IMG/VR virus record: IMGVR_UViG_3300005747_000097
Location: 1 to 20,997 of that record
DNA from: a virus
Reading direction: 5' to 3' (one strand)
DNA length: 20,997 bases
Shown: positions 3,777 to 20,763 of the stretch, in pieces
How the letters are laid out: each line of letters starts with the position of its first letter
Position numbering within the stretch: the first letter of the stretch is position 1
Translations under genes and position numbers: made by a program
The notes under the pieces: model-generated
What the model was told of the DNA's origin: nothing
What the model saw: the letters and a program-made list of their open reading frames with translations, nothing else
Databases searched by the model: none

Positions 3777-6608
3777 GTGGCAGGATATACAAGACAATCT
3801 TCAGCAGATATTATTGCAACGGCTGTTGTACGTGCTAATCCGCTTAACGTAGAATACAATGCTATTCGAGATGCCTTTAGCGCAAGCACAGGACACAAGC
3901 ACGATGGTACTACGGCAGAAGGTGCATATGTACCTTTAATTGCTGACTCAGATGCACTAAACAAAGTAGTTATTGATACAGCAAACAATCGTGTTGGTGT
4001 ATTTGTAGAGGTGTCTAGTGCTGCTGTAGAACAAATACGTATACAAGACGGTGCAATTGTCCCTGTTACCACTAATGATATTGATTTAGGCACATCTAGC
4101 CTACAGTTTAAAGATTTGTATCTTGATGGTACAGCCACAATAGACGTATTGCAAGTAGACACTAACTCTACTCTTACCGGAAATCTTACAGTAAATGGAA
4201 ACACTACACTTGGAAATGCTGCAAGTGACACAGTTACAGTTACTGCAGATGTGGCCTCTCCTCTATTACCTTCTGCTGATGATACATACGACTTAGGTGC
4301 TGTAGGCTCTGAGTGGCGTAATTTGTACGTTGACGGTACTGCTACCATTGATGCCCTAGTAGCTGACACGGCAGATATTAACGGCGGTACAATAGATGGT
4401 GCTACTATTGGTGGGGCTAGTGCTGCTGCTGGTACATTTACATCCTTAAATGCTTCTGGTACATCTACACTTGCTACAGTAGACATTAATGGTGGTGCTA
4501 TTGACGGTACTATTATTGGTGCTAATTCTGCTGCTGCTATTACAGGCACAACAATCACTGGTACGTCCCTTGTTGGCCCAGTTACAGGTGATATAACAGG
4601 TAACGCAGATACTGCAACAGCATTAGAAACAGCACGTACTATTGGCGGTGTATCTTTTGATGGTACTGCTAATATCAACCTTCCCGGTGTAAATACTTCA
4701 GGCAATCAGGACACTTCAGGTAATGCTGCTACAGCTACAGCATTAGAGACTGCTCGTACTATAGGTGGTGTTAGCTTTGATGGTACGGCTAACATAAGTC
4801 TTCCGGGCGTTAACACCACAGGCAATCAGGACACATCTGGCAATGCTGCTAGTGCAACTGTATTAGAAACAGCTAGGTCAATTGCTGGTCAATCTTTTGA
4901 CGGTAGTGCAAACATTACCATTGCTGCTACAGATTTGTCGGACACTGACCAGAGTTTAGCTACAAGTGATAACGTACAGTTTGCTCAAGTAACCACCACT
5001 GGTAATGCTATTATCGGTGGTAACTTAACAGTAAATGGTACTACAACTACAGTTAACTCAAGTAATATGACTGTGGATGACCAGCTTATTGAATTAGGCA
5101 ATGGACGTTCAGGTTCAGCTTCTGGTGATGCAGGTATTGTTATTGAACGTGGTAGCGATGCTAATGCGTTTATTGGCTTTGATGAGAGTGCAGATAAATT
5201 TACTGTAGGTACTGGCACATTTACAGGTGCATCTACTGGCGACCTCACTATTACTACAGGTACACTTGTAGCTAACATTGAAGGTAATATTACTGGTGAT
5301 GTTACAGGCAATGCCGATACAGCTACTGCACTAGAAACTGCACGTACAATTGCTGGTCAGTCTTTTGATGGTACAGCTAATATTAGTATTGCACCCACTG
5401 ACCTTACAGGTGTAAATGCTACTGCTGCTGAAATAAATATTGTAGATGGTGACACATCAGCTACTGCTACTACTCTTGCAGATGCAGACAGGGTTGTAGT
5501 CAATGATGCTGGTACTATGAAGCAGGTAGCATTAACTGACTTTGAAACATATTTTGAGACATCTTTAGATACACTTAGTAATGTAACAACTGTAGGTGCA
5601 TTAAATAGTGGTAGTATTACAAGTGGTTTTGGTGCTATTGACAATGGTTCAAGTGCTATTACCACTACAGGTACAGTAACATTTGGTAGTATTACAGACG
5701 GTACTATAACTGCTACTGGATTTGTAGATGAAGATAACATGTCTTCTAACAGTGCAGTACTTATTCCAACACAACAATCTGTAAAAGCTTATGTAGATAG
5801 TGTAGCCGCAACATCTAATAACGTAACAGGTCTTAATGCTACAGGCGCAGAGCTAAACACAGTAGCTGACTTTTCTGCTGTAAGTGTAGACACAAGTACC
5901 GCAATAGCTAACAATGATGCCCTACTAGTATTTGACAATGGCAACAATATTGGTTATCGTGATGTAGACTTACTAGACACATACTTCTCAGCTACAACCA
6001 AAACACTTACTAATAAAACACTAACAAGTCCTATTGTAACAGGTATGCACCTTAACGACTCAGGCTTTACTGTAGAAGGTTCTGCTGCAGACGGTAATGA
6101 TACTACTGTAGCATTTACAAACCCTACGGCTAACCGTACAATTACCTTCCCTAATGCTACGGGTAATGTAGCTGTATTTACTACGGCTCCTGCTGCAGCT
6201 ATTGCTGATGGTACTAATGGACAAGTCTTAACTACAAACGGTTCAGGTGTATTATCTTTTGCTACTACAAGTGGTTACACCCACCCTAATCACACAGGTG
6301 AGGTTACTTCATCATCAGATGGTGCAACTGTTATTGCTGACAATATAGTAGATGAGGCCAACCTAAAAGTTAGTAACAGTCCTGTTAATGGTTATTTTCT
6401 TTCAGCACAATCTGGTAATACTGGTGGTTTAACTTGGGCTGAGGTAGCGACAGGTGCTGTAAACGATATATTTTATGAGAATGGTCAAACAGTTGATGCT
6501 AACTACACAATTACAAGTAATAAAAATGCAGTAAGTGCTGGTCCTGTAAGCATAGCATCGGGCGTTACAGTTACAGTACCTTCAGGATCAAGATGGGCGG
6601 TGGTATAA
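3777..6608 (+). CDS. Large repeat-rich tail fibre protein
   Basis: 943 residues. The start is GTG at 3777, four bases after the previous stop, with GGAGA at 3766-3770; no in-frame ATG lies near. Residues about 20-55 (NVEYNAIRDAFSASTGHKHDG) match the N-terminal virion-attachment region seen in many podovirus fibres. The shaft is built from familiar marine-phage modules: DLGTSSLQFKDLYLDGTATID (about 102-122), a second DLGAVGSEWRNLYVDGT copy, DINGGTIDGATIG, and 40-residue repeats around ATALETARTIGG (see repeat entry). The distal part contains TLTNKTLTSPIV, NRTITFPNATGNV, HPNHTGEVTSS and NGYFLSAQSGNTGGLTW. It ends in VTVTVPSGSRWAVV, a common last segment of such fibres. Likely a trimeric side fibre or fibre shaft. 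No intramolecular chaperone domain is visible. Confidence 0.8.
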   Translation: MAGYTRQSSADIIATAVVRANPLNVEYNAIRDAFSASTGHKHDGTTAEGAYVPLIADSDALNKVVIDTANNRVGVFVEVSSAAVEQIRIQDGAIVPVTTNDIDLGTSSLQFKDLYLDGTATIDVLQVDTNSTLTGNLTVNGNTTLGNAASDTVTVTADVASPLLPSADDTYDLGAVGSEWRNLYVDGTATIDALVADTADINGGTIDGATIGGASAAAGTFTSLNASGTSTLATVDINGGAIDGTIIGANSAAAITGTTITGTSLVGPVTGDITGNADTATALETARTIGGVSFDGTANINLPGVNTSGNQDTSGNAATATALETARTIGGVSFDGTANISLPGVNTTGNQDTSGNAASATVLETARSIAGQSFDGSANITIAATDLSDTDQSLATSDNVQFAQVTTTGNAIIGGNLTVNGTTTTVNSSNMTVDDQLIELGNGRSGSASGDAGIVIERGSDANAFIGFDESADKFTVGTGTFTGASTGDLTITTGTLVANIEGNITGDVTGNADTATALETARTIAGQSFDGTANISIAPTDLTGVNATAAEINIVDGDTSATATTLADADRVVVNDAGTMKQVALTDFETYFETSLDTLSNVTTVGALNSGSITSGFGAIDNGSSAITTTGTVTFGSITDGTITATGFVDEDNMSSNSAVLIPTQQSVKAYVDSVAATSNNVTGLNATGAELNTVADFSAVSVDTSTAIANNDALLVFDNGNNIGYRDVDLLDTYFSATTKTLTNKTLTSPIVTGMHLNDSGFTVEGSAADGNDTTVAFTNPTANRTITFPNATGNVAVFTTAPAAAIADGTNGQVLTTNGSGVLSFATTSGYTHPNHTGEVTSSSDGATVIADNIVDEANLKVSNSPVNGYFLSAQSGNTGGLTWAEVATGAVNDIFYENGQTVDANYTITSNKNAVSAGPVSIASGVTVTVPSGSRWAVV
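4611..4920 (+). repeat. In-frame 120-base tandem repeat in the fibre gene
   Basis: The ATALETARTIGGVSFDG-type motif begins at 4614, 4734 and (diverged, ATVLETARSIAG) 4854, a period of exactly 120 bases or 40 residues. Two units are full (4611-4730 and 4731-4850); the third matches through about base 4920 and then diverges. An isolated fourth copy of the same motif lies at about 5319-5400. Synonymous differences between copies show that they are not a very recent duplication. Confidence 0.8.
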
Positions 6609-7748
6609 ATGGGTAAGATTAAAGTAGATACAGTTACTAATTTAGCTGGGACAGGTGCGCCGAACATATCAGATGGTGTTACAATTGGTGGTGTGGCTTT
6701 AGCTTCTGTAAATAAACAAGAGCATTACGCACAGAGTGCAGCACCGACTAGTCCTGCTGATGGTGCAGTGTGGTATGATACAGATGATGACAAAGCGTAT
6801 GTTTATATTAACAGTGAGTTTTATGAATTAACGTATACTAATTTACCTACTAACGCAGGTAATCGTGGTGTGTTTGGTGGGGGAGATAATGGTTCTGGAT
6901 CGGGTACTGCTTGGCAAAACGTAATAGACTATATAAGCATTCCTACTGCAGGAAACGCTACAGATTTTGGTAATCTTACTCAAGCAATATCAATGGGTGC
7001 ATCCGCTTCTAATGGTAATAGAGGCGTGTTTGCTGGGGGTTTAAATGGGAGTACCGTATATAATATAATAAACTACATTACTATAGCTAGTGCAGGAAAT
7101 GCTACAGATTTCGGTGATCTTACAGTGGCTAGAAGGCAGGTAGGAGGATGTTCCGATAGCAGTAGGGGTGTTTTTGGAGGCGGTAATTCTAGTGGTGGTG
7201 CAAATAACTATGTTGATGTAATAGACTACATTACTATAGCATCAACAGGCAATGCAACAGACTTTGGTAATTTAACTGTCAGTAGAGGTGGTGTTACAGC
7301 AGAAGCTAATCTAACTAGAGCTTTGTTTGGTGGGGGACATGCTCCCAGTAACGTAATAGATTATATTACGGTAGCATCTGCGGGTAATGCAACAGACTTT
7401 GGCGATCTTACTATTGCGATCCACATGCCGGGAAGTTGTTCTAGTTTAACTAGGGCTTTGTTTGCTGGTGGCTATATTGGTGCGCCGTCATATGGCAATA
7501 CCAATACAATTCAATATGTAACTATAGCATCAACAGGCAATGCAACAGACTTTGGCGATCTTACTTTAGCGGCCCAACGACTTGGTGGCACATCAAATCA
7601 CACGAGGGGGGTTTTTGCTGCAGGTAAAACGAGCGAGTCTTCTTTTCTCCCCATAGACTATGTGACTATAGATACTACAGGTAATGCCACGGATTTTGGT
7701 GATCTTAGTGTGTCAAGATATGGCACTGCCGCATGTTCAGGAGATTAA
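6609..7748 (+). CDS. Six-repeat putative beta-propeller tail protein, paralogue 1
   Basis: 379 residues; ATG 6609 follows the fibre stop directly, with GGCGGTGG in the last fibre codons as possible ribosome site. The N-terminal domain (1-85) starts KVDTVTN and contains PTSPADGAVWYDTDDDKAYVYI, a short module common at the N-terminus of phage fibre-like proteins. From R86 to the end there are six repeats of about 44-52 residues with the consensus R-G-V-F-x-G-G, a variable loop, NVIDYITIA-(S/T)-x-GNATDFG-(D/N)-LT-(V)-AR, then a second variable loop. All six carry GNATDFG. The repeat length and the Gly-Gly pair resemble kelch-like blades, so a six-bladed propeller is the natural reading, though this is an inference. 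Likely role: fibre tip, or an accessory adhesin that contacts the host surface. The two following genes are paralogues. Confidence 0.7.
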   Translation: MGKIKVDTVTNLAGTGAPNISDGVTIGGVALASVNKQEHYAQSAAPTSPADGAVWYDTDDDKAYVYINSEFYELTYTNLPTNAGNRGVFGGGDNGSGSGTAWQNVIDYISIPTAGNATDFGNLTQAISMGASASNGNRGVFAGGLNGSTVYNIINYITIASAGNATDFGDLTVARRQVGGCSDSSRGVFGGGNSSGGANNYVDVIDYITIASTGNATDFGNLTVSRGGVTAEANLTRALFGGGHAPSNVIDYITVASAGNATDFGDLTIAIHMPGSCSSLTRALFAGGYIGAPSYGNTNTIQYVTIASTGNATDFGDLTLAAQRLGGTSNHTRGVFAAGKTSESSFLPIDYVTIDTTGNATDFGDLSVSRYGTAACSGD

Positions 7749-9942
7749 ATAATGAGTGAATTTAAAGTATCAAGTATGGAAAATACCTCAGATGGGTCTC
7801 CTTCTTTCTCGCAGGGTTTAAACATAGCTGGGGCAGATATTACGGCAAGCCATGCAATTTCTGAGTACTACACAGGTGCATCAGAACCTAGCAGCCCAGC
7901 TAATGGTGCGTTCTGGTTTGATGGTACAGACTTGTATCAGTATATAAATGGTAAATTTAGGATATTTAGTGTGACGGCACCACCTGCGGTGGGGGATAGA
8001 GCAGTTGCTACTGGTGGAAATGCTGGTAGTTATGATATGCAATATGTATCTATTACTACACCGGGAAACACTACAGACTTTGGTGATCTTACTGTTGCTA
8101 GAGGTAAAGGGGGTAGTGCTTCAAATGGTTCAAGGGGTATATATGCAGGAGGGGAAATAAATGGTTCTCCGTATTTTCAAAATGTAATAGATTATTTTAC
8201 TATAGCAACACCCGGAAATACTACAGATTTTGGTGATCTTACAGTTGCTACGTCAGATGTAGCAGGGTGTTCTAATCCAACTTACGGTATTTTTGCTGGT
8301 GGTAGTTCCTCTGGCGTTGCTGGCTCTAATGTTATAAATTATATAACTATAGCGACTACAGGAAATGCTGTAGACTTTGGTGATCTTACAGTTGCTAGAA
8401 GGCTTGGTGATTGTGGTGCTTCCAATCAAACATACGGACTTTTTGCTGGTGGTAGAAATGCTTCCTATGCTGATGTTAATACAATAGACCGCATTACTAT
8501 AGCAACAGCAGGAAATGCAACAGACTTTGGTGATCTTCTTGGGTCAAGTTTGAGTGTAAGTGGTACTTCTAACCTTACTAGAGCTGTTTTTACAGATGTT
8601 GGAAATGCTAGTGATACAATTTCTTATGTAGCACCAGCTACCCCCGGCAATGCTGCAGACTTCGGTAATCTATCTGTTGGCAGAAGTTTTTCGGCATGTA
8701 CTACAGATTTAACTTACGCTATTTTTATGGGTGGAAGTGGAACAGCAGAGGTAGCTGAAACAATAGATAGGGTTGCAATAGATACTTTAGGTAATGCTAC
8801 AGACTTTGGAAACATGATTGGCACGGTTGATTATTATTATAGTGCGTGTTCAGGAGATTAATTTTATGAGTACAATAAAAGTAGACACAATTACCAATGG
8901 CGGTAGCACTGTAGACTTCACCTACAATGCTAAAGTAGGTGCAGGTAGTGGCACACTCAAAAAAGAGTACTATGAACAATCCACAGAACCTACTTACCCT
9001 TGTGACGGTGCATTATGGTTTAACACTTCTGATGATGTATTTAAAATCTATGCTAATAACGGGTGGTATACTACTGCTGTAGTACAACCTCCCAGTAATT
9101 CTTTTGGTACTAGGGGTGTATTTTCGGGTGGACTAGGTAGTCCTACCAATGTAATTGACTATGTGACTATAGCTAGTCCGGGCAATGCCACTGATTTTGG
9201 CGATCTTACAGTAGCTAGAGGTTATAACTGTGGATGTTCTAACGGCACTAGAGGAATAACTGGTCCCGGTTCACCATCGGGGGGTGGCACTGCTAATAAT
9301 ACACTAGATTATATAACTATAGCTACACCGGGTAATGCCACGGACTTTGGCGATTCGTTCACTACAGGTTATGGTCAAGCAGGTCTTGGTAATAGTGTTA
9401 GAGGTGTATTTGGTGGGGGATGGGTTTCTTCTTATAACGATATAAGTTATATTACTATTGCTACCACAGGCAATGCTACTGAATTTGGTGAATTAGTTAC
9501 ACCGCAGCCAGAAATGGGTGCTACAGCTAATTCCACCAGAGGATTATTTGCTGGGGGATGGTCAGGAACTTCAAATGTTATTCAGTATATCACAATAATG
9601 AGTCCCGGTAATTCTACTGACTTTGGTGATCTTACTGTAGCTAGATTTAGCACAACAGGCGCAGCGTCTGAAACCAGAGCTTTATTTGCTGGCGGTAATA
9701 CCAGCGGAAATGTAATAGACTATGTGACTATAGCTACACCGGGTAATGCCACAGACTTTGGTGACATGACAGTAACAAAAAGTTACAGAGCTGCTGCTTC
9801 TAGTGGTACTAGGGCTATTTTTGGTGGAGGAAGTTCTCAAACAAATGTAATAGACTATGTGACTATATCTACACCGGGTAATGCCACAGACTTTGGAAAC
9901 TTAACTCAATCCAGAGAAGGTGCGGCTGGTTTTGCGGGTAGC
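6864..9942 (+). repeat. Eighteen blade-like protein repeats in three blocks of six
   Basis: Repeat blocks lie at about 6864-7745, 7998-8858 and 9112-9942, each interrupted by a stop codon, a start codon and an N-terminal domain of 82-85 residues. The consensus is RG-(V/L/I)-F-x-GG ... N-V-I-D-Y-(I/V)-T-I-A-x-x-GNATDFGDLTVAR. At DNA level the segment encoding DY-x-TIA-x-x-GNATDFG is nearly identical between several units; for example the copies at about 7519 and 7230, and those at about 9718 and 9850, differ by few bases. Confidence 0.85.
7752..8861 (+). CDS. Six-repeat putative beta-propeller tail protein, paralogue 2
   Basis: 369 residues; ATG 7752 lies three bases after the previous stop. 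The ribosome site AGGAGA (7739-7744) is formed by the last codons of the upstream paralogue. The N-terminal domain (1-82) opens KVSSMEN and contains PSSPANGAFWFDGTDLYQYI. Six repeats run from R83 to the end. The GN-x-x-DFG element reads GNTTDFG, GNTTDFG, GNAVDFG, GNATDFG, GNAADFG and GNATDFG, so this copy has diverged most within the framework. The fifth repeat lacks the Gly-Gly pair (RAVFTDVG), and repeats three, four and six start with Y rather than R. It ends SACSGD like paralogue 1. Presumed receptor-contact or fibre-tip protein, by the same reasoning as its neighbours. Confidence 0.68.
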   Translation: MSEFKVSSMENTSDGSPSFSQGLNIAGADITASHAISEYYTGASEPSSPANGAFWFDGTDLYQYINGKFRIFSVTAPPAVGDRAVATGGNAGSYDMQYVSITTPGNTTDFGDLTVARGKGGSASNGSRGIYAGGEINGSPYFQNVIDYFTIATPGNTTDFGDLTVATSDVAGCSNPTYGIFAGGSSSGVAGSNVINYITIATTGNAVDFGDLTVARRLGDCGASNQTYGLFAGGRNASYADVNTIDRITIATAGNATDFGDLLGSSLSVSGTSNLTRAVFTDVGNASDTISYVAPATPGNAADFGNLSVGRSFSACTTDLTYAIFMGGSGTAEVAETIDRVAIDTLGNATDFGNMIGTVDYYYSACSGD

Positions 9943-9945
9943 TAA
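8866..9945 (+). CDS. Six-repeat putative beta-propeller tail protein, paralogue 3
   Basis: 359 residues from ATG 8866. This start is preferred over the longer frame beginning at 8818 because MSTIKVDTITN aligns with the N-termini of the two upstream paralogues, and because AGGAGA (8852-8857), in the last codons of paralogue 2, sits at a suitable distance. The longer version would also overlap the upstream gene with a low-complexity leader. The N-terminal domain is residues 1-82, with YPCDGALWFNTSDDVFKIY. Six repeats start at R83; four read GNATDFG, one GNATEFG and one GNSTDFG. The second repeat lacks the usual F-x-GG (RGITGPGSP). It ends FAGS instead of CSGD, and no gene follows closely. Role inferred as for paralogues 1 and 2. 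Confidence 0.7.
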   Translation: MSTIKVDTITNGGSTVDFTYNAKVGAGSGTLKKEYYEQSTEPTYPCDGALWFNTSDDVFKIYANNGWYTTAVVQPPSNSFGTRGVFSGGLGSPTNVIDYVTIASPGNATDFGDLTVARGYNCGCSNGTRGITGPGSPSGGGTANNTLDYITIATPGNATDFGDSFTTGYGQAGLGNSVRGVFGGGWVSSYNDISYITIATTGNATEFGELVTPQPEMGATANSTRGLFAGGWSGTSNVIQYITIMSPGNSTDFGDLTVARFSTTGAASETRALFAGGNTSGNVIDYVTIATPGNATDFGDMTVTKSYRAAASSGTRAIFGGGSSQTNVIDYVTISTPGNATDFGNLTQSREGAAGFAGS

Positions 9946-11343: not shown

Positions 11344-14301
11344 ATGGCAATGTTCAAAGGATTTAAACCTCAAGCAATGAATAAGATTGCAGGGGCTATG
11401 GGCTATCAAGGTGATATGAACCAGTTTCAACAGTATGTTGACCAAGACCCTGCACGGCAACAACAGATGAATATGTATACGAATGCTGCACGGAAGATGG
11501 CAGCAGGTGGGTATGTGCCACGGTTTAATACTGGTGGCGTAGCAAATAATCAAGAAGAAGAAGAACAGCCTGTTAATCAAGAAGAAGAACAGCCTGTATC
11601 AAACAGAGGTACTGTAAGTAATTTTGAGGCAACACAAGCTGCCACACCTGTTTATACAGGTGCTAGTCCTACACAATATAATATAACTCCTGCTACATAT
11701 TATCAAGAAGGAGATGAGTTACCTGAAGGTGTAAATGTAGGCGATCAAAAAACAGCAGAAATTAAAAACCCAGTTCCCGGTGTAGCACAATTTAGTGTAG
11801 AACAAATGTATCAACCCGGTCTGCCTATTGGTGGCACAACAATTTCTAAAGCTACAAAAACAGAAGAGGCACAAAAAATAGCAGCAGGAACAGGTACACT
11901 GACCGGCCCATACCTTGAAAGTGATCCTACCCCCGGCGTAGTACGTCCAACAGTAATGCCGCAAGAAGGTAATAAATTTGCATTTACACCAGATGGTACA
12001 CGATTTGAAGTTCCTATTAGCTATGACTTTTCAGCAGGTGCTGTACAAGTACCGACTGCTACTGCAAATACGTATCAAGCTGGACTAATTACTTCGTCAG
12101 ATGCTAATAAAGCTGCTGTAACAACTACAGAATCTGATATAGACTCTGAAATGAAAAAAGTGGTCGCTGCAGAGGGATCAACTAGCGGTATAACAGCAGC
12201 ACAAGGTGTGTTATCTACTGGGGCTAAACCCGGCGCACCAGAGTTTGATACTGCTTTAAAACAAGGGGTTGGGTTTGGCGATCTAAACGTGACACCAGAC
12301 CAGTTAGCAGAAGCTAAAGGTCAAGACGAAGTTGTACCAGCAGCTAAGATTGCACAGTCCTCTGGCATTGACCCAGCTATAGCTCAACAAGCTACCGTAT
12401 CTGTAAATGAAATACCGCAGGCTGCGCAAATTCAAGAGTCTAACATGGCTCAAGCGCAACTAGCGCAATCAGGTGGGTTCCTCAGAGAAGATGCTGTAGC
12501 TTATGCAGCTAAACTAGATTCATTTAGTGTAGACAATGGCACATTAGCTAAAGCTATTCAAGGCGAGGTAGGTGCATTAGGAACTGTACAGGGTCAGCTA
12601 GAAGGGCTGATGAAGCAGTTTGATGATGGCACACCTGTATGGGCAGCAGGGGCTTTAAGGGCTGCTAACGCTGCTATGGCCTCAAGGGGTCTAGCTGGTA
12701 GCTCAATGGCAGGTGCGGCTATCCTACAGGCTGCTATGGAGTCTTCACTACCTATTGCTACACAAGATGCTCAAACATTTAACCAAATGAATATGAGCAA
12801 CTTAGATAGGCGGCAACAAGTGGCACTAACTAATGCTGCTGCACAACAAGGTCTTTCACTGCAGAACTTATCTAATGAGCAACAAGTAGCATTACAGAAC
12901 AGTACTAATGCTTTCGCACTACAGACACAAGACTTGTCTAACATGCAACAAACCTTCTTAGCTAATGCACAGATAAAGGCGGCTTTCCAAGGACAGAATT
13001 TAAGTAATCAGCAACAAGTAAACTTAGTTACTGCTGCTAGATTTGCTGAAGTTGCTAACATGAATTTAAACAATCGACAGCAGACAGCACTAGTAAACAA
13101 TGCCAACAATCTTCAAATAGATTTAGCTAATCTGTCTAATAGACAACAATCTTATATGTCTAATGCTCAACTTTCTGCAGCCTTACAAGGTCAACAGATT
13201 AATGTACAACAACAAACAGCTATGCAAAACGCAGCTAGATTTTCTGAGGCAGCTAACATAACATTTAGTGCAGACCAGCAAGAGCAATTACATAATTCAG
13301 AGTTGATGAAAACTATTGGGTTAGCTAATCTTAATACTGCACAAGCTACGACCCTGCAGAATGCTGCGACAATTGCTGCTATGGATAGCCAGAACCTGAG
13401 TAATAGACAGCAGGCTTCTGTACAAGAGGCACAAAACTTCTTGCAGATGGATATGGCTAACTTGTCTAATGAGCAACAGACAGAGTTGTTCAAAGCACAA
13501 CAGCGTGTACAATCTTTGTTTTCAGATCAAGCTGCAACCAATGCTGCTGCACAGTTTAATGCATCCAGTGAAAATCAAGTTGATCAGTTCTTTCAAAACC
13601 TTGGTTCTCAAGTGTCACAGTTTAATGCGACACAAGCTAATGCACAATCACAGTATAATGCGGGTCAGGCTAATACAGTAAATCGTTTTAATGCAGAACT
13701 AAACAATCAACGTGATCAGTTTAATGCACAAAACCAACTAGTGATTGCACAGAGTAATGCACAGTGGCGTAGGCAGATAGCTACAGCAGATACTGCTTCA
13801 GTTAATCGTGCTAATGAGTTGAATGCGAATGCTATTCTTGACGTAAGTAAAACAGCTTACAATAATTTGTGGAACTACTACGGTGACACAATGGAATGGG
13901 CATGGAAATCTGCCGAAGGCGAACTTGATCGTCTAAATGCATTAGCAACTGCTCAACTTAGCGCAGACGCACAAAATGCTGCATCCGCTGCACAAAGGTC
14001 ATCTTCTGCGGGTAGTGCTATTGGTAATTTAATAGGAACACTTGGAACGGCTTGGCTTAAATTTGGAAGTTGCTGGGTAGCACTTGAAGTATATGGTGCA
14101 AAAGATGTTAGATGGTTTGTATTTAGAAGCTGGTTGCATAATGATGCTCCAAAATGGTTTAAGAACCTGTACCAAAAGCATGGAGAAAATTTTGCAAAAT
14201 ACATTAAAGATAAACCAGCACTTAAATGGGTTATTCGTCAGATGATGAATGTTATTGTGAATAAAAAGATGAAAAAGAGGACAAGCTATGCCATTAATTA
14301 A
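11344..14301 (+). CDS. Large Gln/Asn-rich repeat virion protein with C-terminal CWVA module (putative internal virion protein)
   Basis: 985 residues. The start is ATG 11344, one base after the upstream stop; a second ATG at 11350 is possible, and the ribosome site is weak. Residues 1-62 are helical and end GGYVPRFNTGG, a Gly-rich turn seen in phage virion proteins. Residues about 65-480 are a low-complexity Ala/Thr/Gln/Glu region. Residues 487-728 are eleven 22-residue repeats (LSN-x-QQ-x-x-L-x-NA...), and 737-813 are seven 11-residue repeats (QFNA...). A short hydrophobic stretch (about 893-905) precedes the C-terminal module 909-980, SCWVALEVYGAKDVRWFVF...APKWFKNLY...GENFAKYI...KPALKW, which occurs at the end of various phage virion proteins. 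The long helical repeats and the position before two other very large proteins suggest an ejected core protein. A fibre-like role is an alternative. Confidence 0.6.
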   Translation: MAMFKGFKPQAMNKIAGAMGYQGDMNQFQQYVDQDPARQQQMNMYTNAARKMAAGGYVPRFNTGGVANNQEEEEQPVNQEEEQPVSNRGTVSNFEATQAATPVYTGASPTQYNITPATYYQEGDELPEGVNVGDQKTAEIKNPVPGVAQFSVEQMYQPGLPIGGTTISKATKTEEAQKIAAGTGTLTGPYLESDPTPGVVRPTVMPQEGNKFAFTPDGTRFEVPISYDFSAGAVQVPTATANTYQAGLITSSDANKAAVTTTESDIDSEMKKVVAAEGSTSGITAAQGVLSTGAKPGAPEFDTALKQGVGFGDLNVTPDQLAEAKGQDEVVPAAKIAQSSGIDPAIAQQATVSVNEIPQAAQIQESNMAQAQLAQSGGFLREDAVAYAAKLDSFSVDNGTLAKAIQGEVGALGTVQGQLEGLMKQFDDGTPVWAAGALRAANAAMASRGLAGSSMAGAAILQAAMESSLPIATQDAQTFNQMNMSNLDRRQQVALTNAAAQQGLSLQNLSNEQQVALQNSTNAFALQTQDLSNMQQTFLANAQIKAAFQGQNLSNQQQVNLVTAARFAEVANMNLNNRQQTALVNNANNLQIDLANLSNRQQSYMSNAQLSAALQGQQINVQQQTAMQNAARFSEAANITFSADQQEQLHNSELMKTIGLANLNTAQATTLQNAATIAAMDSQNLSNRQQASVQEAQNFLQMDMANLSNEQQTELFKAQQRVQSLFSDQAATNAAAQFNASSENQVDQFFQNLGSQVSQFNATQANAQSQYNAGQANTVNRFNAELNNQRDQFNAQNQLVIAQSNAQWRRQIATADTASVNRANELNANAILDVSKTAYNNLWNYYGDTMEWAWKSAEGELDRLNALATAQLSADAQNAASAAQRSSSAGSAIGNLIGTLGTAWLKFGSCWVALEVYGAKDVRWFVFRSWLHNDAPKWFKNLYQKHGENFAKYIKDKPALKWVIRQMMNVIVNKKMKKRTSYAIN
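12802..13527 (+). repeat. Eleven tandem 22-residue (66-base) repeats
   Basis: Residues 487-728 of the 985-residue protein divide without gaps into eleven units of exactly 22 residues, typically L-(S/N)-N-x-Q-Q-x-x-L-x-N-A-x-x-x-x-x-x-x-x-x-N. Examples of unit starts are LDRRQQVAL, LSNEQQVAL, LSNMQQTFL, LSNQQQVNL, LNNRQQTAL and LSNRQQSYM. The 22-residue length equals two 11-residue turns, the period of amphipathic three-turn helices. Confidence 0.85.
13552..13782 (+). repeat. Seven tandem 11-residue (33-base) repeats
   Basis: Residues 737-813 read in register as 11-residue units starting QFNASS, QFFQNL, QFNATQ, QYNAGQ, RFNAEL, QFNAQN and QSNAQW. They begin eight residues after the 22-residue array ends and keep the same underlying 11-residue periodicity. 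A weaker eighth unit (TADTASVNRAN) follows. Confidence 0.8.
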
Positions 14302-14521
14302 TCCAGCACCACTAGTGTATCAAACTTTGTCAAATCAAATTGATAGAATGGCGAAAAAAGATAAAACGCCAACTGTTTCTGAAAAAATGACAAATGGATT
14401 ACTTTCCAGAAGTTCAAAAAAACAAAGTTCTTCAGGAGAGAATATGTCTGAAATTAGTCGTGTTATGCATTATATGAAGTATATAAGACAACAAAAAGAG
14501 GAATTAAAATCAAATGGCTGA
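14288..14521 (+). CDS. Small basic protein of unknown function
   Basis: 77 residues, Lys/Ser-rich, starting at ATG 14288 inside the last codons of the upstream gene (14-base overlap), with GAGG at 14277-14280 as ribosome site. The middle (about 23-52) looks disordered; the C-terminus (SEISRVMHYMKYIRQQKEEL) is a likely amphipathic helix. It overlaps the next gene by eight bases. The tight overlaps on both sides support a real, coupled gene. Function not recognised; a small virion or assembly component is suggested only by context. Confidence 0.6.
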   Translation: MPLINPAPLVYQTLSNQIDRMAKKDKTPTVSEKMTNGLLSRSSKKQSSSGENMSEISRVMHYMKYIRQQKEELKSNG

Positions 14522-15026
14522 AATGAATGAACCTAGCTTTGATGCTCCAATTCCCGGTATGTCTTTAACCGCTGAACTTGGTGGTCGTCCGTGGCAAAGC
14601 CCTCCCCAATATACAACTGTTGAACAGGCTCTTGAATACTATATTCCACGTCTTACTGCTGATGAAGTTACAGACCAACTTTTGGATGTTCTTGAAATGG
14701 GCGTACCTGTTTCAACTCTTGCAAACACAATGCAACTTTCTGGAGTTATGGAAGGTAAACATAGTGTTGATGTAGGTGTTTTGATTATGCCGGTTATAAT
14801 GGAAATGATTTCATATATTGCAGATACAGCAGGTGTTGAATATGATATGGGAACAGATAAACCTAAAAAAGTAAGCGAAACTCTCGTTGATAAGGCACTT
14901 ACAAAGTTACAAGAAGAAGAAGATAAAGATGTACAAGAAAATGAAGTTATGCCGGAGGTAGAAATACAAGTAGAAGAAGAACAAACTATGGAACAGCCTG
15001 CAGGTTTAATGTCTAGGAGAGTGTAA
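14514..15026 (+). CDS. Conserved virion-associated protein of marine-phage type
   Basis: 170 residues. The start ATG 14514 has GAGG at 14498-14501 (a long 12-base spacer); ATG 14523 is a possible alternative. Residues about 12-45 contain PIPGMSLTAELGGRPWQSPP then QYTTVEQALEYYIPRL, a pattern (GxRPWxxPPQYTTVxEAxxYY) I recall from structural modules of marine phages. The rest is helical, and the last 50 residues are very acidic (EEEDKDVQENEVMPEVEIQ). Placed between the two large putative ejection proteins, it may be a core component or chaperone for them. The precise role is unknown. Confidence 0.6.
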   Translation: MAEMNEPSFDAPIPGMSLTAELGGRPWQSPPQYTTVEQALEYYIPRLTADEVTDQLLDVLEMGVPVSTLANTMQLSGVMEGKHSVDVGVLIMPVIMEMISYIADTAGVEYDMGTDKPKKVSETLVDKALTKLQEEEDKDVQENEVMPEVEIQVEEEQTMEQPAGLMSRRV

Positions 15027-15028
15027 CA

Positions 15029-17194
15029 ATGGGTATTTTTGGTTTAGGTGCTTTTGGTGAAGGTATTGTTAAAGGATTAGCAGAAAGTGCGACTACATCA
15101 TTGCAAGATGAAATGGAACGAATTGAAGACAGTATTAAAACTGCGTCAGATATTCGTTTAAAGCGCACTGTACAGGATCAAGATAGACGTAGAGATGAAG
15201 CCGAAAAAATTGTTAAGGCACTCAAACGTGCAAGAGCAAATCTTGGTGGTGCAGATGATCAGCAAGCTGCTATACGTGCCGCTTCTTTATTAAAGCAAAG
15301 TGGAGATTTAGATGCCTTTAATACTTTAGTAGGTAGAATTTCTGATAGATCGCAATCTGGCGATTTAGACTTTAACAAATATTTTGGTGATGTTTCAAAG
15401 ATGTCACCGGCTGCAAGCGATCTTGATATTGCATATTCATTTATAGAAGATACAACAATACCTCTTCCAGATTCTAAAGAAGGTCTGAAGGGGGTTGAGC
15501 CAAAGGGTATTTTGAAATATCTTGGTCCTGATATTGATGCAGAATCTCTTGTTGAACAGCGTACTCAAGAACAAATGACTATGATGGACTTGGGTGTACG
15601 AGATGTAAAGGATATTTCAATACCTACTGTAGAATTTAAACGTGAAGCGTTTAAGTTAGACGGTATGACTGCAGATCAGGAATATAAATATGTTCGTGAT
15701 AAACTTGCAAAGGGTGACTTAGACGACAAACAAAGAACTTTTTACAGCGAAAGAGCAACTAACCTTGCATCTAATCTGGGTATTGATAAGCAAATGGAAC
15801 TTGCCATTAACGACTTTAATACCGCTCCTGATGCTGATGCTAAAGCAAAAGCAGAACAGACGATTATGAATCTTGGTAAAACGCAATCACGTCTTACTGC
15901 AATGAAAACTGGTAGCACAATTGAAATGCTTAAGGTAGACAAGCAAGAGGCTCTTGAGAAGGGTGATCTAAAAGCAGCTTCAGCTATTGATAAAAAACTT
16001 CTTGACGCAGGTGCTATCACTTTGGATTCATACCTATCACGGCTACAAACTACTGCAGCATCTGGCGGTGAAGGTGCTGAAGCAGCACGTGATGAAGCAG
16101 TTAAGATTGGCACTGTTGTAGCTAAATTAAAGCAAGACATTGGCGATGCTTCCAAGCGTGTTACCTTTGATGGTATTGTATCTGTTCAATCAAAAGCAAG
16201 AAAACTTGCAATGGCTATTGTGAAAGATAATCCTGAATTGTTGGCAGCTGGTATGCGGTTTAAAATTGAATCCGATGGTAATTATACAATTGATACAGCT
16301 AATACAGAATCAGACGCAGCCGTTAATGAGGCTTTCAATAAGGCTTTTGATGAAGCATTAAATAAAGTTTATGCAGACTTTGCTAGTAATAAAGATAGCA
16401 GTAGCGATGTCAATTTTGTTGCTGCCTATGAAGCCCACAAAGGTGGGGTTGAAATTAAACCTCAAGTTTCTTTAGTCGGCAATGGTCAAAAACCTAAAGT
16501 AGTGTTAAATGAAACGCAAATAAATGCTATTAAAGTACGTCCAGATACAGCTGAAGGTGGTGAAGCATATCTTGCAGCAGCAGAACTAGCTGCCGCAAAA
16601 AGAAGTGTACCAGTTAACACTGATGCACTTGTAGATGCGGCAAGGCAAGCAGGAAAATCAGATGAATTTATAAATGCTATAAAGCCTATAATGACACCAG
16701 AAGTGCGTAGTTTAGTTTCTCAAGGTGTGGATAAGGAAGCAGCAGCATTTGAAGTCAATATGCCTAAACAAACTTCAGGTCAGATTGTAGATGAGGACGT
16801 GTTAAAGGCAGAAAAAATTATAGAGAGTACTTCTGGATTTAAGTCAAAAGAAGTACGTGCTATTGAAAATGAAATGGACGTTTCAAAAGCAACTGCAATT
16901 AAGTTGTATGATCAAGTACAAAAACTTATAAAACAAAGAGAATCGGAGAAAAATGATAAACCGCTTTATGAATACGAAGGTGGTGTAGTTCCAGATGTTC
17001 TATTTATGGGTATGGGTAAAACAATTCCGTACAAGCAAGTTAATGATGAATATTACAGGATTAAAGACGATGGTACTTTAGCTAAATCACCAGCTAACAC
17101 TGCTAGAAAAGCTATGCTTAACGATAAAAGTAGAAAAGACGTGAAGCGTACTGGTGGTTCTGTAGAGTTTGCTGACACACTTACTAGTAAGTAA
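15029..17194 (+). CDS. Large virion protein, putative internal core / ejection protein
   Basis: 721 residues. ATG 15029 has a strong AGGAGA at 15014-15019 and follows the previous stop by two bases. The N-terminus has a glycine-rich hydrophobic patch (GIFGLGAFGEGIVKGLAES, residues 2-20), then a long charged helix (about 22-75). Most of the remainder is helical and Ala/Lys/Asp/Glu-rich, with no enzymatic motif or clear transmembrane span. A beta-richer C-terminal part (about 640-705) includes GGVVPDVLFMGMGKTIPYKQ. Size, helical character and position directly before a 1182-residue protein resemble the T7 gp15/gp16 arrangement of DNA-ejection proteins. This is an analogy of order and size; I see no sequence similarity to T7 gp15. 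Confidence 0.6.
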   Translation: MGIFGLGAFGEGIVKGLAESATTSLQDEMERIEDSIKTASDIRLKRTVQDQDRRRDEAEKIVKALKRARANLGGADDQQAAIRAASLLKQSGDLDAFNTLVGRISDRSQSGDLDFNKYFGDVSKMSPAASDLDIAYSFIEDTTIPLPDSKEGLKGVEPKGILKYLGPDIDAESLVEQRTQEQMTMMDLGVRDVKDISIPTVEFKREAFKLDGMTADQEYKYVRDKLAKGDLDDKQRTFYSERATNLASNLGIDKQMELAINDFNTAPDADAKAKAEQTIMNLGKTQSRLTAMKTGSTIEMLKVDKQEALEKGDLKAASAIDKKLLDAGAITLDSYLSRLQTTAASGGEGAEAARDEAVKIGTVVAKLKQDIGDASKRVTFDGIVSVQSKARKLAMAIVKDNPELLAAGMRFKIESDGNYTIDTANTESDAAVNEAFNKAFDEALNKVYADFASNKDSSSDVNFVAAYEAHKGGVEIKPQVSLVGNGQKPKVVLNETQINAIKVRPDTAEGGEAYLAAAELAAAKRSVPVNTDALVDAARQAGKSDEFINAIKPIMTPEVRSLVSQGVDKEAAAFEVNMPKQTSGQIVDEDVLKAEKIIESTSGFKSKEVRAIENEMDVSKATAIKLYDQVQKLIKQRESEKNDKPLYEYEGGVVPDVLFMGMGKTIPYKQVNDEYYRIKDDGTLAKSPANTARKAMLNDKSRKDVKRTGGSVEFADTLTSK

Positions 17195-17214: not shown

Positions 17215-20200
17215 ATGAATGAATTTGATGAATTTTCATTTGCTTACGGTGATCCACTTCAAAGGGACGAAGATAATAAACTTGGAGCTGAAGACGAGTT
17301 TTCTTTTGCCTATGGTGAACCTGTAACTCAAATTGAGCAAAAAGCAAAAGAGCCAGAAGATGAGTTCGCTTTTGCTTATGGTGAGCAGTCTGATGAACAA
17401 AAAAATTACCCAACAAAAGTAAAATCATATGAAGCATTTGTTGAAAGCCCACAGATACGTGAGCAAGCTGTACGCTTTGCACGTGATCGTTTAGGTTATG
17501 ATGACATTTCCCCAGAAGATGCTGTTGAAGAGGTAATTGAACACTTCCGGTCATTCAAAGTAAATGAATTTACTGCCGGTATGGACTATAATTATACATC
17601 TGCAGCGGCAGCTGATTCAAATAAAGATAAAAAAGCCAAACAAAGGTTTGAAGATTATCGCAATCTTTATACTGCCTTTGAAGCACTTCCCGGTGCTTTT
17701 GACGAAGGTGGCGCACCTAATGCTTTCACAGACTATCTTGAAGGTATCGCCACTGCTCCTTCCACATACGTAAGTATTCTCCCCGGTATTTTCACAGCAG
17801 GTGTAGGTACAGCAGCAGTAAAAGCTGGTGCTGGTGCAACTGCGCAAGTTGCAAAAGAAGGCGTTAAGCGTCTTATTATGGAATCGTTTAAACAGCCGCT
17901 AAAGACAATTGCTGCTAATCCAATTAAAACAACAATTGCTACAGAAGCTACTATGGGTGCGCTACAGAATATTGCCGAACAAAAAACTGAGCAAGAGATT
18001 GATGTACGTGAAGATTTTAGTATGGGTGAACTTACCGCTACTGCTGCTATTAGCGGTCTGGCTCCTGCTGCACTTGCAGTTGGTTTACCTAAAAAGGCAT
18101 TTAGCGAACTAGTATCACGTAAGAGTAAAACACTTTTGTCTGATGCTGAAAAAGCTGTTGCAAAAAGAAACGAAGAAGCAACTGAAGCAGCAAGAGAAGT
18201 CTTATCAAAAAACAAAAAAGTTGCAAAGGCTGTTAAAGAAGCAAGAAAACCTCTTGATAGAGAAGCTGTAGCAGCAGGTGAAGAAGAACTGTTGAAAGCT
18301 ACACAAGAGTCAAACCTTGCAGATCATCTTGTAGCTAAACTTGACCCATCCAGAATGGAACGTCTGGATGCTCTTGCTGTTGAACTTTTAGTAGAAACAG
18401 GAACTAAAAGACAGCCAAAAGAACGCACCTCTGATTTTGTTTCTCGTATTGTTTCAGAAGCACTAGAAAAAGAAGATGATACAACTAAAAACTTGTTGCG
18501 AGGTCTGTATGACAAATATAATCTTAACAGTGATGACATTCTTCGCATGGTTGTCAATGATATGTACGTTGCTGAAAGTTCAGCTATGGGTAAAGGTCTT
18601 GGTCAAAGAGGCCAAACAGAAAAACTCATTCGTCAATTAACGGATGTTTCGGCTGCAGACGTGTTTGGTTTTAGTGAAGAAGCAGTTAAGACACTAACAA
18701 AAGCTGGTGAAAAAATTAAACGTGGTGATATGCGTAGTGCTGTTGCCAAGCTAGAAGAAACAAAAACCGGAATTTCACTTAGACGATTAGATGATCTGCG
18801 CCGTGCTTTAATGACTTCACAGCCTGCAACAACTTTCAGGAACACTATATCTGGATATACTCGTGTAGGCTTTGATACTATTACACGCGCCTTTGACCAA
18901 TCTATTGCTACTTCTCTATCCGCACTTACTTTTGGTAAAGCAGCTAAAGGAAAAGTAGGCTTGTTCACAAGTACACCAAACGCAGATGTGTTTGCTACAC
19001 TATACGGAACAATAAATCCTGTGGAATCACGTGCTATTGCTGAGTTGTATAAACAAGCATTTCCTTCAATGGCACAAAAGGTGTTTAAACAAATTACCGA
19101 CATTTCTGATGCATCTGGTGAAGTTACTGGGGCTGCAACAGATAAAATGGTAAAATTCATGCAGAACATTAACGCACTGAATACCGCTTCAGACAATTAC
19201 TTTAAAAATGTTGCTTTAGTAGGTGGCATGAAAAGAAAGCTAAACGAAGCTGCTGCTCGTGCTAGACAACTAGACCCATCAATTGATATGGATCAGTTTA
19301 ACTTAGAAAAACTTATTCGTGATGGTAAGTTTAACGATTTGTTTGGAAAAGAACTAAAAGTTGGTAATACTTTAATTTTTGATGGCAAACAAGAATTAGA
19401 AAACATAGCTAAAGAAGCAATGTATTTTACATTCCAGCGTGATCCAACAAGTGGAGTAGGAAAAGCGTTTGTAAATTTAATGCACTCTGCGCCTTTCTTG
19501 ACAACATCTTTGGTTCCATTCCCAAGATTTGTAGCTAATGCTATGAGATTTACCTACGAATATTCACCTTTATATCTGATTAATCCTCGTGTGTTAAAAA
19601 CAATTGCAGGTGGTTCTGAAAACTATGATGATATTGCTAAAGGTTTAGTTGGCAGTGCCGCTTTGTTTGGTGCTATGGCGTTTAGACAAAGTGAGTACGC
19701 TGGTGATAACTGGTGGGAAGGTAAAACTGTAGGCGGTAAAACATTTGATATGCGTCCATTCTTTCCAGCTGCACCATATCTCTTTTTTGCTGATTGGATT
19801 ACCCGATTACAAAAGGGTGAGAAAACTACTGATGACAGAAGTTTTGTTACGGAAGCATTTCAAGCGTTATCCGGTACACAATTCCGTGCAGGATTTGGTG
19901 TTTACGCATTAGATAAAGCATACAAAGATATTGCAGAAGCTGACAGTTATGAGGCGGGTGGAAGAATACTTGGACAGGCAGTGTCTAATATTATTAGTAC
20001 TTACTCTATTCCACTAACAGTGGGTCAAGATTTGTATAACACTTTCCTTGCGCCTGATGATGCACGATTGGTAAAAGATACTCGTACAGCAGATTTACTT
20101 GGTCTTATTGTTAATAAGTCACTTGCTCGTGTACCCGGAAACTATGCTATTGAAGATGCGCTGTCTAATGCGTGGGGATTTGATAAGGCACAAGTATATG

Positions 20201-20763
20201 AATCAGGAACTAGAGAAGAGCCGCTTCGTAGGATTGCACCTATAACACGGCAAACCTATGGTGTTCTATTGAATGAGCGTAAGAACTTCTTTGAAAAAGA
20301 AATTGCTAGGCTTAAAATCAGTAAGCGTGTAATCGAGTCACGTACAAATGTTCCAGAAGCAGACTTAATGTTGAACGCCATGTATGGTGAGTTTATTACT
20401 AACTTTGTGGTTCCTATGATGAAAAGAGAAAAATATAAAAACCTTTCAGACGTAGAAAAATCAATAGCTATACGTGACATTATTTCAAACTATAAAGATG
20501 ATATTAAAGAAGCAGTAAGAACTAACGCTAAACTGTCTGCTCCAGAAAGGTTTGGATATAACCCAATGGAGAGAGAGAGATTTATGAAAGCTAGACCAGA
20601 TGAAAGAGAATTAGCCCTTACAATTTATCATAACACTTATGGTGAACCAGAAGAAGGAAAGAAGGGCTATGATTATGAGGTTTTATTACAAATTATTGAT
20701 GGTATTAAAACTAAAAGAAAACAAGGTAAATACACTGGTGATTTATTTAGTTTAACAGACTAA
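17215..20763 (+). CDS. Very large virion protein, putative DNA-ejection (internal core) protein
   Basis: 1182 residues, the largest product in the window. ATG 17215 is the only usable start: an in-frame TAA lies at 17209-17211, and only a weak purine-rich AGAAAG (17198-17203) serves as ribosome site. Three DEF(S/A)FAYG motifs at residues 5-12, 27-34 and 49-56 open the protein. Residues about 180-210 (SILPGIFTAGVGTAAVKAGAGATA) and 265-290 (ATAAISGLAPAALAVGLP) are hydrophobic, Ala/Gly-rich and could insert in a membrane, as could about 812-825 (VGSAALFGAMAF). Long charged helices lie between. I see no lytic transglycosylase motif. By size and its place as the last structural gene it resembles T7 gp16-type ejection proteins that cross the host envelope ahead of the DNA; this is inference. 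A hairpin terminator follows the stop. Confidence 0.6.
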   Translation: MNEFDEFSFAYGDPLQRDEDNKLGAEDEFSFAYGEPVTQIEQKAKEPEDEFAFAYGEQSDEQKNYPTKVKSYEAFVESPQIREQAVRFARDRLGYDDISPEDAVEEVIEHFRSFKVNEFTAGMDYNYTSAAAADSNKDKKAKQRFEDYRNLYTAFEALPGAFDEGGAPNAFTDYLEGIATAPSTYVSILPGIFTAGVGTAAVKAGAGATAQVAKEGVKRLIMESFKQPLKTIAANPIKTTIATEATMGALQNIAEQKTEQEIDVREDFSMGELTATAAISGLAPAALAVGLPKKAFSELVSRKSKTLLSDAEKAVAKRNEEATEAAREVLSKNKKVAKAVKEARKPLDREAVAAGEEELLKATQESNLADHLVAKLDPSRMERLDALAVELLVETGTKRQPKERTSDFVSRIVSEALEKEDDTTKNLLRGLYDKYNLNSDDILRMVVNDMYVAESSAMGKGLGQRGQTEKLIRQLTDVSAADVFGFSEEAVKTLTKAGEKIKRGDMRSAVAKLEETKTGISLRRLDDLRRALMTSQPATTFRNTISGYTRVGFDTITRAFDQSIATSLSALTFGKAAKGKVGLFTSTPNADVFATLYGTINPVESRAIAELYKQAFPSMAQKVFKQITDISDASGEVTGAATDKMVKFMQNINALNTASDNYFKNVALVGGMKRKLNEAAARARQLDPSIDMDQFNLEKLIRDGKFNDLFGKELKVGNTLIFDGKQELENIAKEAMYFTFQRDPTSGVGKAFVNLMHSAPFLTTSLVPFPRFVANAMRFTYEYSPLYLINPRVLKTIAGGSENYDDIAKGLVGSAALFGAMAFRQSEYAGDNWWEGKTVGGKTFDMRPFFPAAPYLFFADWITRLQKGEKTTDDRSFVTEAFQALSGTQFRAGFGVYALDKAYKDIAEADSYEAGGRILGQAVSNIISTYSIPLTVGQDLYNTFLAPDDARLVKDTRTADLLGLIVNKSLARVPGNYAIEDALSNAWGFDKAQVYESGTREEPLRRIAPITRQTYGVLLNERKNFFEKEIARLKISKRVIESRTNVPEADLMLNAMYGEFITNFVVPMMKREKYKNLSDVEKSIAIRDIISNYKDDIKEAVRTNAKLSAPERFGYNPMERERFMKARPDERELALTIYHNTYGEPEEGKKGYDYEVLLQIIDGIKTKRKQGKYTGDLFSLTD
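17227..17388 (+). repeat. Three DEF(S/A)FAYG(D/E) motifs, 66-base period
   Basis: Motif copies begin at 17227, 17293 and 17359, exactly 66 bases (22 residues) apart: DEFSFAYGDP, DEFSFAYGEP and DEFAFAYGEQ. Codons differ between copies (for example GATGAATTTTCA, GACGAGTTTTCT, GATGAGTTCGCT), while the intervening linkers are dissimilar and acidic, so the motif, not the DNA, appears to be conserved. Confidence 0.85.

Follow-up and report, generated by a model that had tools for sequence, protein, structure and literature searches.

The window analysed here (the whole stretch of a virus record, 20,997 bases long) encodes a protein of 985 amino acids which is probably a repeat-array virion protein belonging to an ejection cassette and having a quantised length, since among the homologs analysed evolution has altered the length of the repeat module by whole periods only. 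The explanation that we favour, with slightly better than even confidence, is that we are dealing with a virion protein of a short-tailed marine phage, an HMO-2011-type podovirus, and most likely with one of those proteins that travel with the DNA and assist its passage through the cell envelope. The gene and its parts are laid out in the window as follows.

11344-14301, + strand: open reading frame of 985 amino acids, the array protein gene (from the list of open reading frames)
11344-12492, + strand: residues 1-383, the start MAMFKGFKPQAMNKIAGAMGYQGDM and then a Pro/Thr/Gly-rich region (homolog comparison)
12586-12801, + strand: residues 415-486, conserved cap (LMKQFDDGTPVWAAGALRAANAAMASRGLAGSSMAGAAILQAAMESSLPIATQDAQTF), found in 172/172 homologs analysed
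12802-13527, + strand: residues 487-728, 11 gapless units of 22 residues, LSNxQQxALxNAxxxxxxxxxN (lag identity and homologs)
13528-13782, + strand: residues 729-813, 11-mer region in register with the 22-mers
within 13528-13782, + strand: residues 729-736, QAATNAAA, between the 22-mers and the 11-mers
13552-13782, + strand: residues 737-813, seven 11-residue units of the QFNA type
13468-13995, + strand: residues 709-884, predicted single continuous helix that takes in the 11-mers and also the QWRR...LWNYYGDTMEWAW segment, which is conserved (AlphaFold, pLDDT mostly about 47-67)
14029-14298, + strand: residues 896-985, Gly-rich hydrophobic segment, then the CWVALEVYG C-terminal extension (homologs)
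14071-14298: the CWVALEVYG C-terminal extension

Over residues 487-735 the lag-22 identity is 0.30, compared with a maximum over all lags of 0.218 in 2000 shuffles. The initial annotation had described 242 residues of exact 22-residue units, which is right as to length, the array being gapless (11 x 22), but not as to sequence, the units having diverged to ~30% identity (about 0.27-0.36 on average between units in arrays of this length). The eight residues that it had placed before the seven 11-mers are also there, but they are not a phase break, because Asn keeps the same 11-residue phase across both arrays (20/28 positions in the window protein, 69% over all homologs). A single 11-residue period through ~330 residues is therefore upheld, both by this in-register Asn and by insertions and deletions that preserve the phase in every homolog. 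So is the Gln/Asn/Ala-rich composition, which goes together with low charge and with a complete absence of Pro and Cys from the 47,878 array residues of all homologs.

The comparison of repeat numbers in related phages that had been proposed with the annotation was based on the span from the conserved LPIA of the cap to the QWRR conserved in the C-terminal core, with a third anchor where the 22-mers end. Among the matches listed, this span is 8 mod 11 in 172/172 distinct homologs (best 80 per query, a sampling tilted to close relatives of the queries, IMG/VR scans giving hundreds more relatives), and it takes 15 distinct values between 118 and 778 residues. The 22-mer part measures whole multiples of 22 residues in all but two homologs (170/172), and those two are off by 11; its unit number goes from 2 to 31 among the homologs listed, while the 11-mer part is 1 mod 11 in all 172 (56, 67, 78, 89, 100, 111, or 122 residues). 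The 11-residue periodicity is therefore a conserved constraint, which makes the observation stronger than the initial annotation had claimed. Sixteen loci fetched later served as a held-out set, 15 of them with all anchors, and the 11-residue rule was kept in 15/15, two of which contain half a unit among the 22-mers; four of the 15 share identical values and are probably one sequence present several times in metagenome bins. The length rule reflects many separate events, as on a tree of the flanking segments the array length must have changed at least 22 times and the 11-mer part at least six times. Whole-period insertions and deletions would keep the packing faces of the helices aligned. Array length showed a weak negative rank correlation with the length of the next downstream protein (rho -0.26) and no significant one with that of the second downstream protein, both uncorrected for kinship. 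Length shifts by whole 11-residue units are also known from the tape measure proteins of siphophages (PMC3271669), and the QFNA part of the window protein has, like their units, a Phe marker every 11 residues; in contrast to them, the podovirus relatives of this family have no long tail and the 22-residue unit dominates.

A coarser step of five units (110 residues) is evident in the unit numbers, which are 6, 11, 16, 21, 26, and 31 in the main clade and 9, 14, and 19 in the pelagiphage clade. All reconstructed length changes but one within the main clade (128 rows) are multiples of five units; the exceptions to the rule are a homolog with 7 units (L358) and forms with 2, 3, 4, and 5.5 units. 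Tandem duplication of five units is plain in the forms with 21-31 units, where identity at lag 5 is 0.38-0.59. The 11-unit class has its similarity peak instead at lag 3 (protein 0.36, DNA 0.49) and not at lag 5 (0.31, DNA 0.46), so the five-unit steps there are not simply visible block duplication. Duplication then accounts for the long forms, and another cause, perhaps a five-unit turn of the structure, may account for the 6-11-16 steps. Such a turn belongs to a fold that we regard as possible, at clearly less than even confidence, in which every 22-mer would form one helix and a turn, about five units would complete a superhelical turn, the long helix would follow, and the copies would stack or wrap around the DNA or the portal. 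The steps in both clades and the lag-3 peak speak for it, but the tandem duplication of the long forms is by itself a mechanistic source of steps, the exceptional forms break the rule, and the sampling favours the kin of the queries.

The predicted structure bears on this fold as well. An AlphaFold model of residues 384-885 (35 sequences; mean pLDDT 63, pTM 0.43, moderate confidence) is all-helical, without strands, and places in the 22-mer half one helix of ~13-17 residues per unit with a break between units (pLDDT about 67-83 mostly). Both halves of the array are thus predicted to be alpha-helical, the 11-mer half as one long helix. Among 1546 units of 22 residues, 92% have an N-cap residue (S/T/D/N) at position 2 and 94% a hydrophobic one at position 1, while Gly is most frequent at position 20 (15%); the N-cap and Gly pattern is consistent with helix ends. 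Helices spaced by 22 residues and this pattern favour one helix and turn per unit. On the other hand, breaks in the 22-mer half are disfavoured by the lack of Pro and of any insertion or deletion other than multiples of 11, as there is neither Pro nor length variation at the supposed turns.

Hydrophobicity was the periodicity that the initial annotation had proposed to check, and the outcome differs between the halves. The 11-mer half has its peak at 99 degrees, as in an amphipathic alpha-helix, whereas the 22-mer half has peaks at 131, 49, and 163.5 degrees, no significant hydrophobic moment at 98 degrees, and a one-face moment that is not significant (first helical harmonic, phase permutation, p = 0.60). 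The straight helix of that annotation is accordingly supported by prediction for the continuous QFNA half and unsupported for the 22-mer half, broken at each unit in the model. A two-seam hydrophobic pattern was dropped, the second harmonic giving p 0.30 over phase permutations.

An alternative arrangement, which we also entertain only tentatively, is that the ~330 residues make one straight hendecad helix whose oligomer would be a Gln/Asn-lined trans-envelope conduit like the H tube of phiX174. The absence of Pro and the restriction to multiple-of-11 changes in 172 homologs, unlike what loops would show, together with Asn in register through both halves, fit such a conduit, and a precedent exists. 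The H tube consists of ten Gln-rich helices with hendecads such as QKELTKMQLDN; it spans 170 A, and its lumen has Asn, Gln, or Arg at 18/23 inward positions (PMC7354561). Like the array of the window protein, H has Gln-rich hendecads and is free of Pro over the tube segment; its role in phiX174 is in DNA delivery, and it works in the way that the initial annotation had imagined. It differs in having three hendecads followed by heptads over ~120 tube residues and in coming from an ssDNA phage; hhalign of the array protein with the single sequence of phiX174 H gave a probability of 0.3-1.5%. Against one straight helix stand the breaks modelled at each unit of the 22-mer half, the N-cap and Gly residues that fit helix ends, the lack of a significant hydrophobic stripe in that half, and simple arithmetic, as the 31-unit form would be more than 1000 A long at 1.5 A per residue. 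A helical tube is plausible by this analogy, with the 22-mer half and the oligomer as candidates only. The helix-and-turn fold and the straight conduit are sub-cases of our favoured explanation and overlap with it. Under the favoured explanation, several copies could pack through their array helices into an elongated assembly in which the DNA would pass an abundant Gln/Asn surface, much as in the phiX174 H tube.

Periods of 11 and 22 residues are typical of lipid-binding helices of the apolipoprotein/synuclein type, and the repeats might in principle line or curve membranes, as had been suggested in the initial annotation. We consider this very improbable. The strong one-face hydrophobic moment of apolipoprotein-type helices was sought in the 22-mer half and was absent (p = 0.60, see above), and the array is weakly charged, is not punctuated by Pro, and has a surface rich in Gln and Asn. 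The C-terminal segment lies under the usual transmembrane hydropathy in 166/167 homologs. A C-terminal membrane segment was thus rejected as a candidate, with 1/167 homologs reaching a mean hydropathy of 1.6.

The window protein has 55% identity (tblastn, E 1e-120) to gp25 of Puniceispirillum phage HMO-2011 (ADW08438.1), and its membership in the gp25 family is supported by matches of the cap and core HMMs, the homology spanning the cap, the array, and the C-terminal core. The two proteins share the cap, the 22-mer array, and the 11-mer region, and their gene neighbourhoods have the same order, but gp25 has 6 units of 22 where the window protein has 11, and the ends differ. Besides gp25, the best named relatives come from roseophages (CRP-1 and others) and the pelagiphages HTVC115P and HTVC103P, with further ones in Vibrio phage CHOED, Sinorhizobium phage phiM6, and Aeromonas phages; the CRP phages and similar isolated relatives are podoviruses with short tails. 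All the named relatives are annotated as hypothetical except one called huntingtin (MW202701, L083 1356-3947), a name that is most likely wrong and due to the Gln-rich array. The window protein had no match in Pfam or PHROGs and no credible match in the PDB, either by sequence or by profile, and in the literature searched there was neither a structural or proteomic study of gp25 nor such evidence placing the protein in the virion. Phage contigs of this family (L354-L357 and L360) also turn up in metagenome bins whose labels are Flavobacteriales, Neomarinimicrobiota, and Euryarchaeota; identically named contigs of identical length are present in two bins, so these are probably binning contaminants.

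Downstream of the array gene, the window contains four further open reading frames in the same orientation.

14288-14521, + strand: open reading frame of 77 amino acids directly downstream, with no relatives among the fetched loci
14514-15026, + strand: conserved neighbour of 170 amino acids carrying a single hydrophobic segment (217 loci around array genes were fetched and yielded 191 relatives of it)
15029-17194, + strand: neighbour of 721 amino acids in a slot like that of T7 gp15 in size and order, without detectable homology
17215-20763, + strand: neighbour of 1182 amino acids in a slot like that of T7 gp16 in size and order, without detectable homology

In the HMO-2011 gp25 family the gene order is fibres, array protein, ~170 aa, ~500-720 aa, and ~1100-1200 aa, an order kept in the window, with the array gene as the first of a conserved cassette that ends the late region. 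The array cassette resembles the ejection proteins T7 gp14/gp15/gp16 and P22 gp7/gp20/gp16 (PMC8954989) in lying at the end of the late region with neighbours in a similar size order, although none of the T7 and P22 ejection proteins has a 22-residue array. With hhalign, the array protein and its neighbours gave probabilities <4% against profiles of P22 gp7, T7 gp14, and DB2 gp18 and against the single sequences of T7 gp15/gp16 and P22 gp20/gp16; as gp7, gp14, and DB2 gp18 do not match one another either, this is a weak test of homology. A GSSM-type motif seen by eye in common with T7 gp14 was unsupported by the profile comparison. Several relatives show a connection with the cell wall: the array protein of CRP-235 has a LysM domain in its N-terminal part, a lysozyme gene lies two to three genes upstream in CRP-3, CRP-212, CRP-235, and CRP-738, and in CRP-603 a cell wall hydrolase gene is directly downstream.

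The ends of the protein are variable. The start MAMFKGFKPQAMNKIAGAMGYQGDM is kept in near relatives, and the Pro/Thr/Gly-rich region that follows varies in length and sequence between homologs. At the other end, the CWVALEVYG extension is present in 27/167 homologs, Peptidase_S74 takes its place in two (L094 and L095), and most others end short, 128/167 having a short C-terminus without such a domain; the window protein itself had no Pfam match to Peptidase_S74. The C-terminal end may therefore be an exchangeable module and, judging from these sequences, the array core appears to stay across phages while the ends are swapped (LysM at the N-terminus, S74 or CWVA at the C-terminus). The relatives ending in S74 match PHROG 4287 "DNA ejection protein" through their C-terminus; in phage PVA1, S74 ends the protein just before an annotated DNA injection protein, and DB2 has a protein ending in S74 in a comparable slot. 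This link to ejection proteins depends on a C-terminal domain that is mobile and is found at the end of tail fibres as well, and the LysM, lysozyme, hydrolase, and S74 links are associations, not proof of a role in DNA ejection. Our favoured explanation draws on these links together with the length rule, the lack of Pro and Cys, the all-helical model, and the late position beside the conserved cassette genes; weighing against it are the negative comparisons with known ejection proteins and phiX174 H, the insignificant one-face moment of the array, and a C-terminus that is not clearly transmembrane.

Upstream of the array gene there are an adaptor gene (Pfam SU10_adaptor), a nozzle-like gene, and fibre-like genes, the array gene coming directly after the latter. 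Given this position, and S74 being common on tail fibres (long tail fibre distal subunit), the protein might itself be a tail fibre or another external appendage, with the repeat as stalk and the S74 or CWVA ends as trimerisation chaperones. We judge this unlikely, as 128/167 homologs lack such an end, the array, unlike the variable ends, is kept in phages of different hosts, and the cassette partners and the LysM and cell wall hydrolase links point to envelope penetration.

A bolder proposal, which we put forward as doubtful, is that short-tailed phages carry a modular helical DNA-delivery device of quantised length, an adjustable ruler or conduit previously undescribed. Under the same joint and equally doubtful proposal, the device would step by 11 residues in the long helix and by 22, mostly in blocks of five units, in the array of 2-31 units. 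The more than six-fold range of lengths in fixed quanta offers a natural series (2, 3, 6, 11, 16, 26, and 31 units) for asking whether ejection proteins work as rulers, tubes, or solenoids. The array is in addition a recognisable marker for annotating a phage protein now called hypothetical, or even huntingtin.

Other repeats were found in the window. The start of the 1182-residue protein has three copies of a DEFSFAYGEP-like motif (17215-17420), and a tandem DNA repeat of 120 bp (4597-4905, ~2.5 copies, 72-78% matches) lies inside a fibre-like open reading frame of 943 amino acids. Three adjacent related proteins (6609-7748, 7752-8861, and 8869-9945) each consist of six repeats of ~45-50 residues with an [AT]TDFG motif (RGVFGGG...IDYITIA..GNATDFGDLT), an arrangement reminiscent of a six-bladed propeller.
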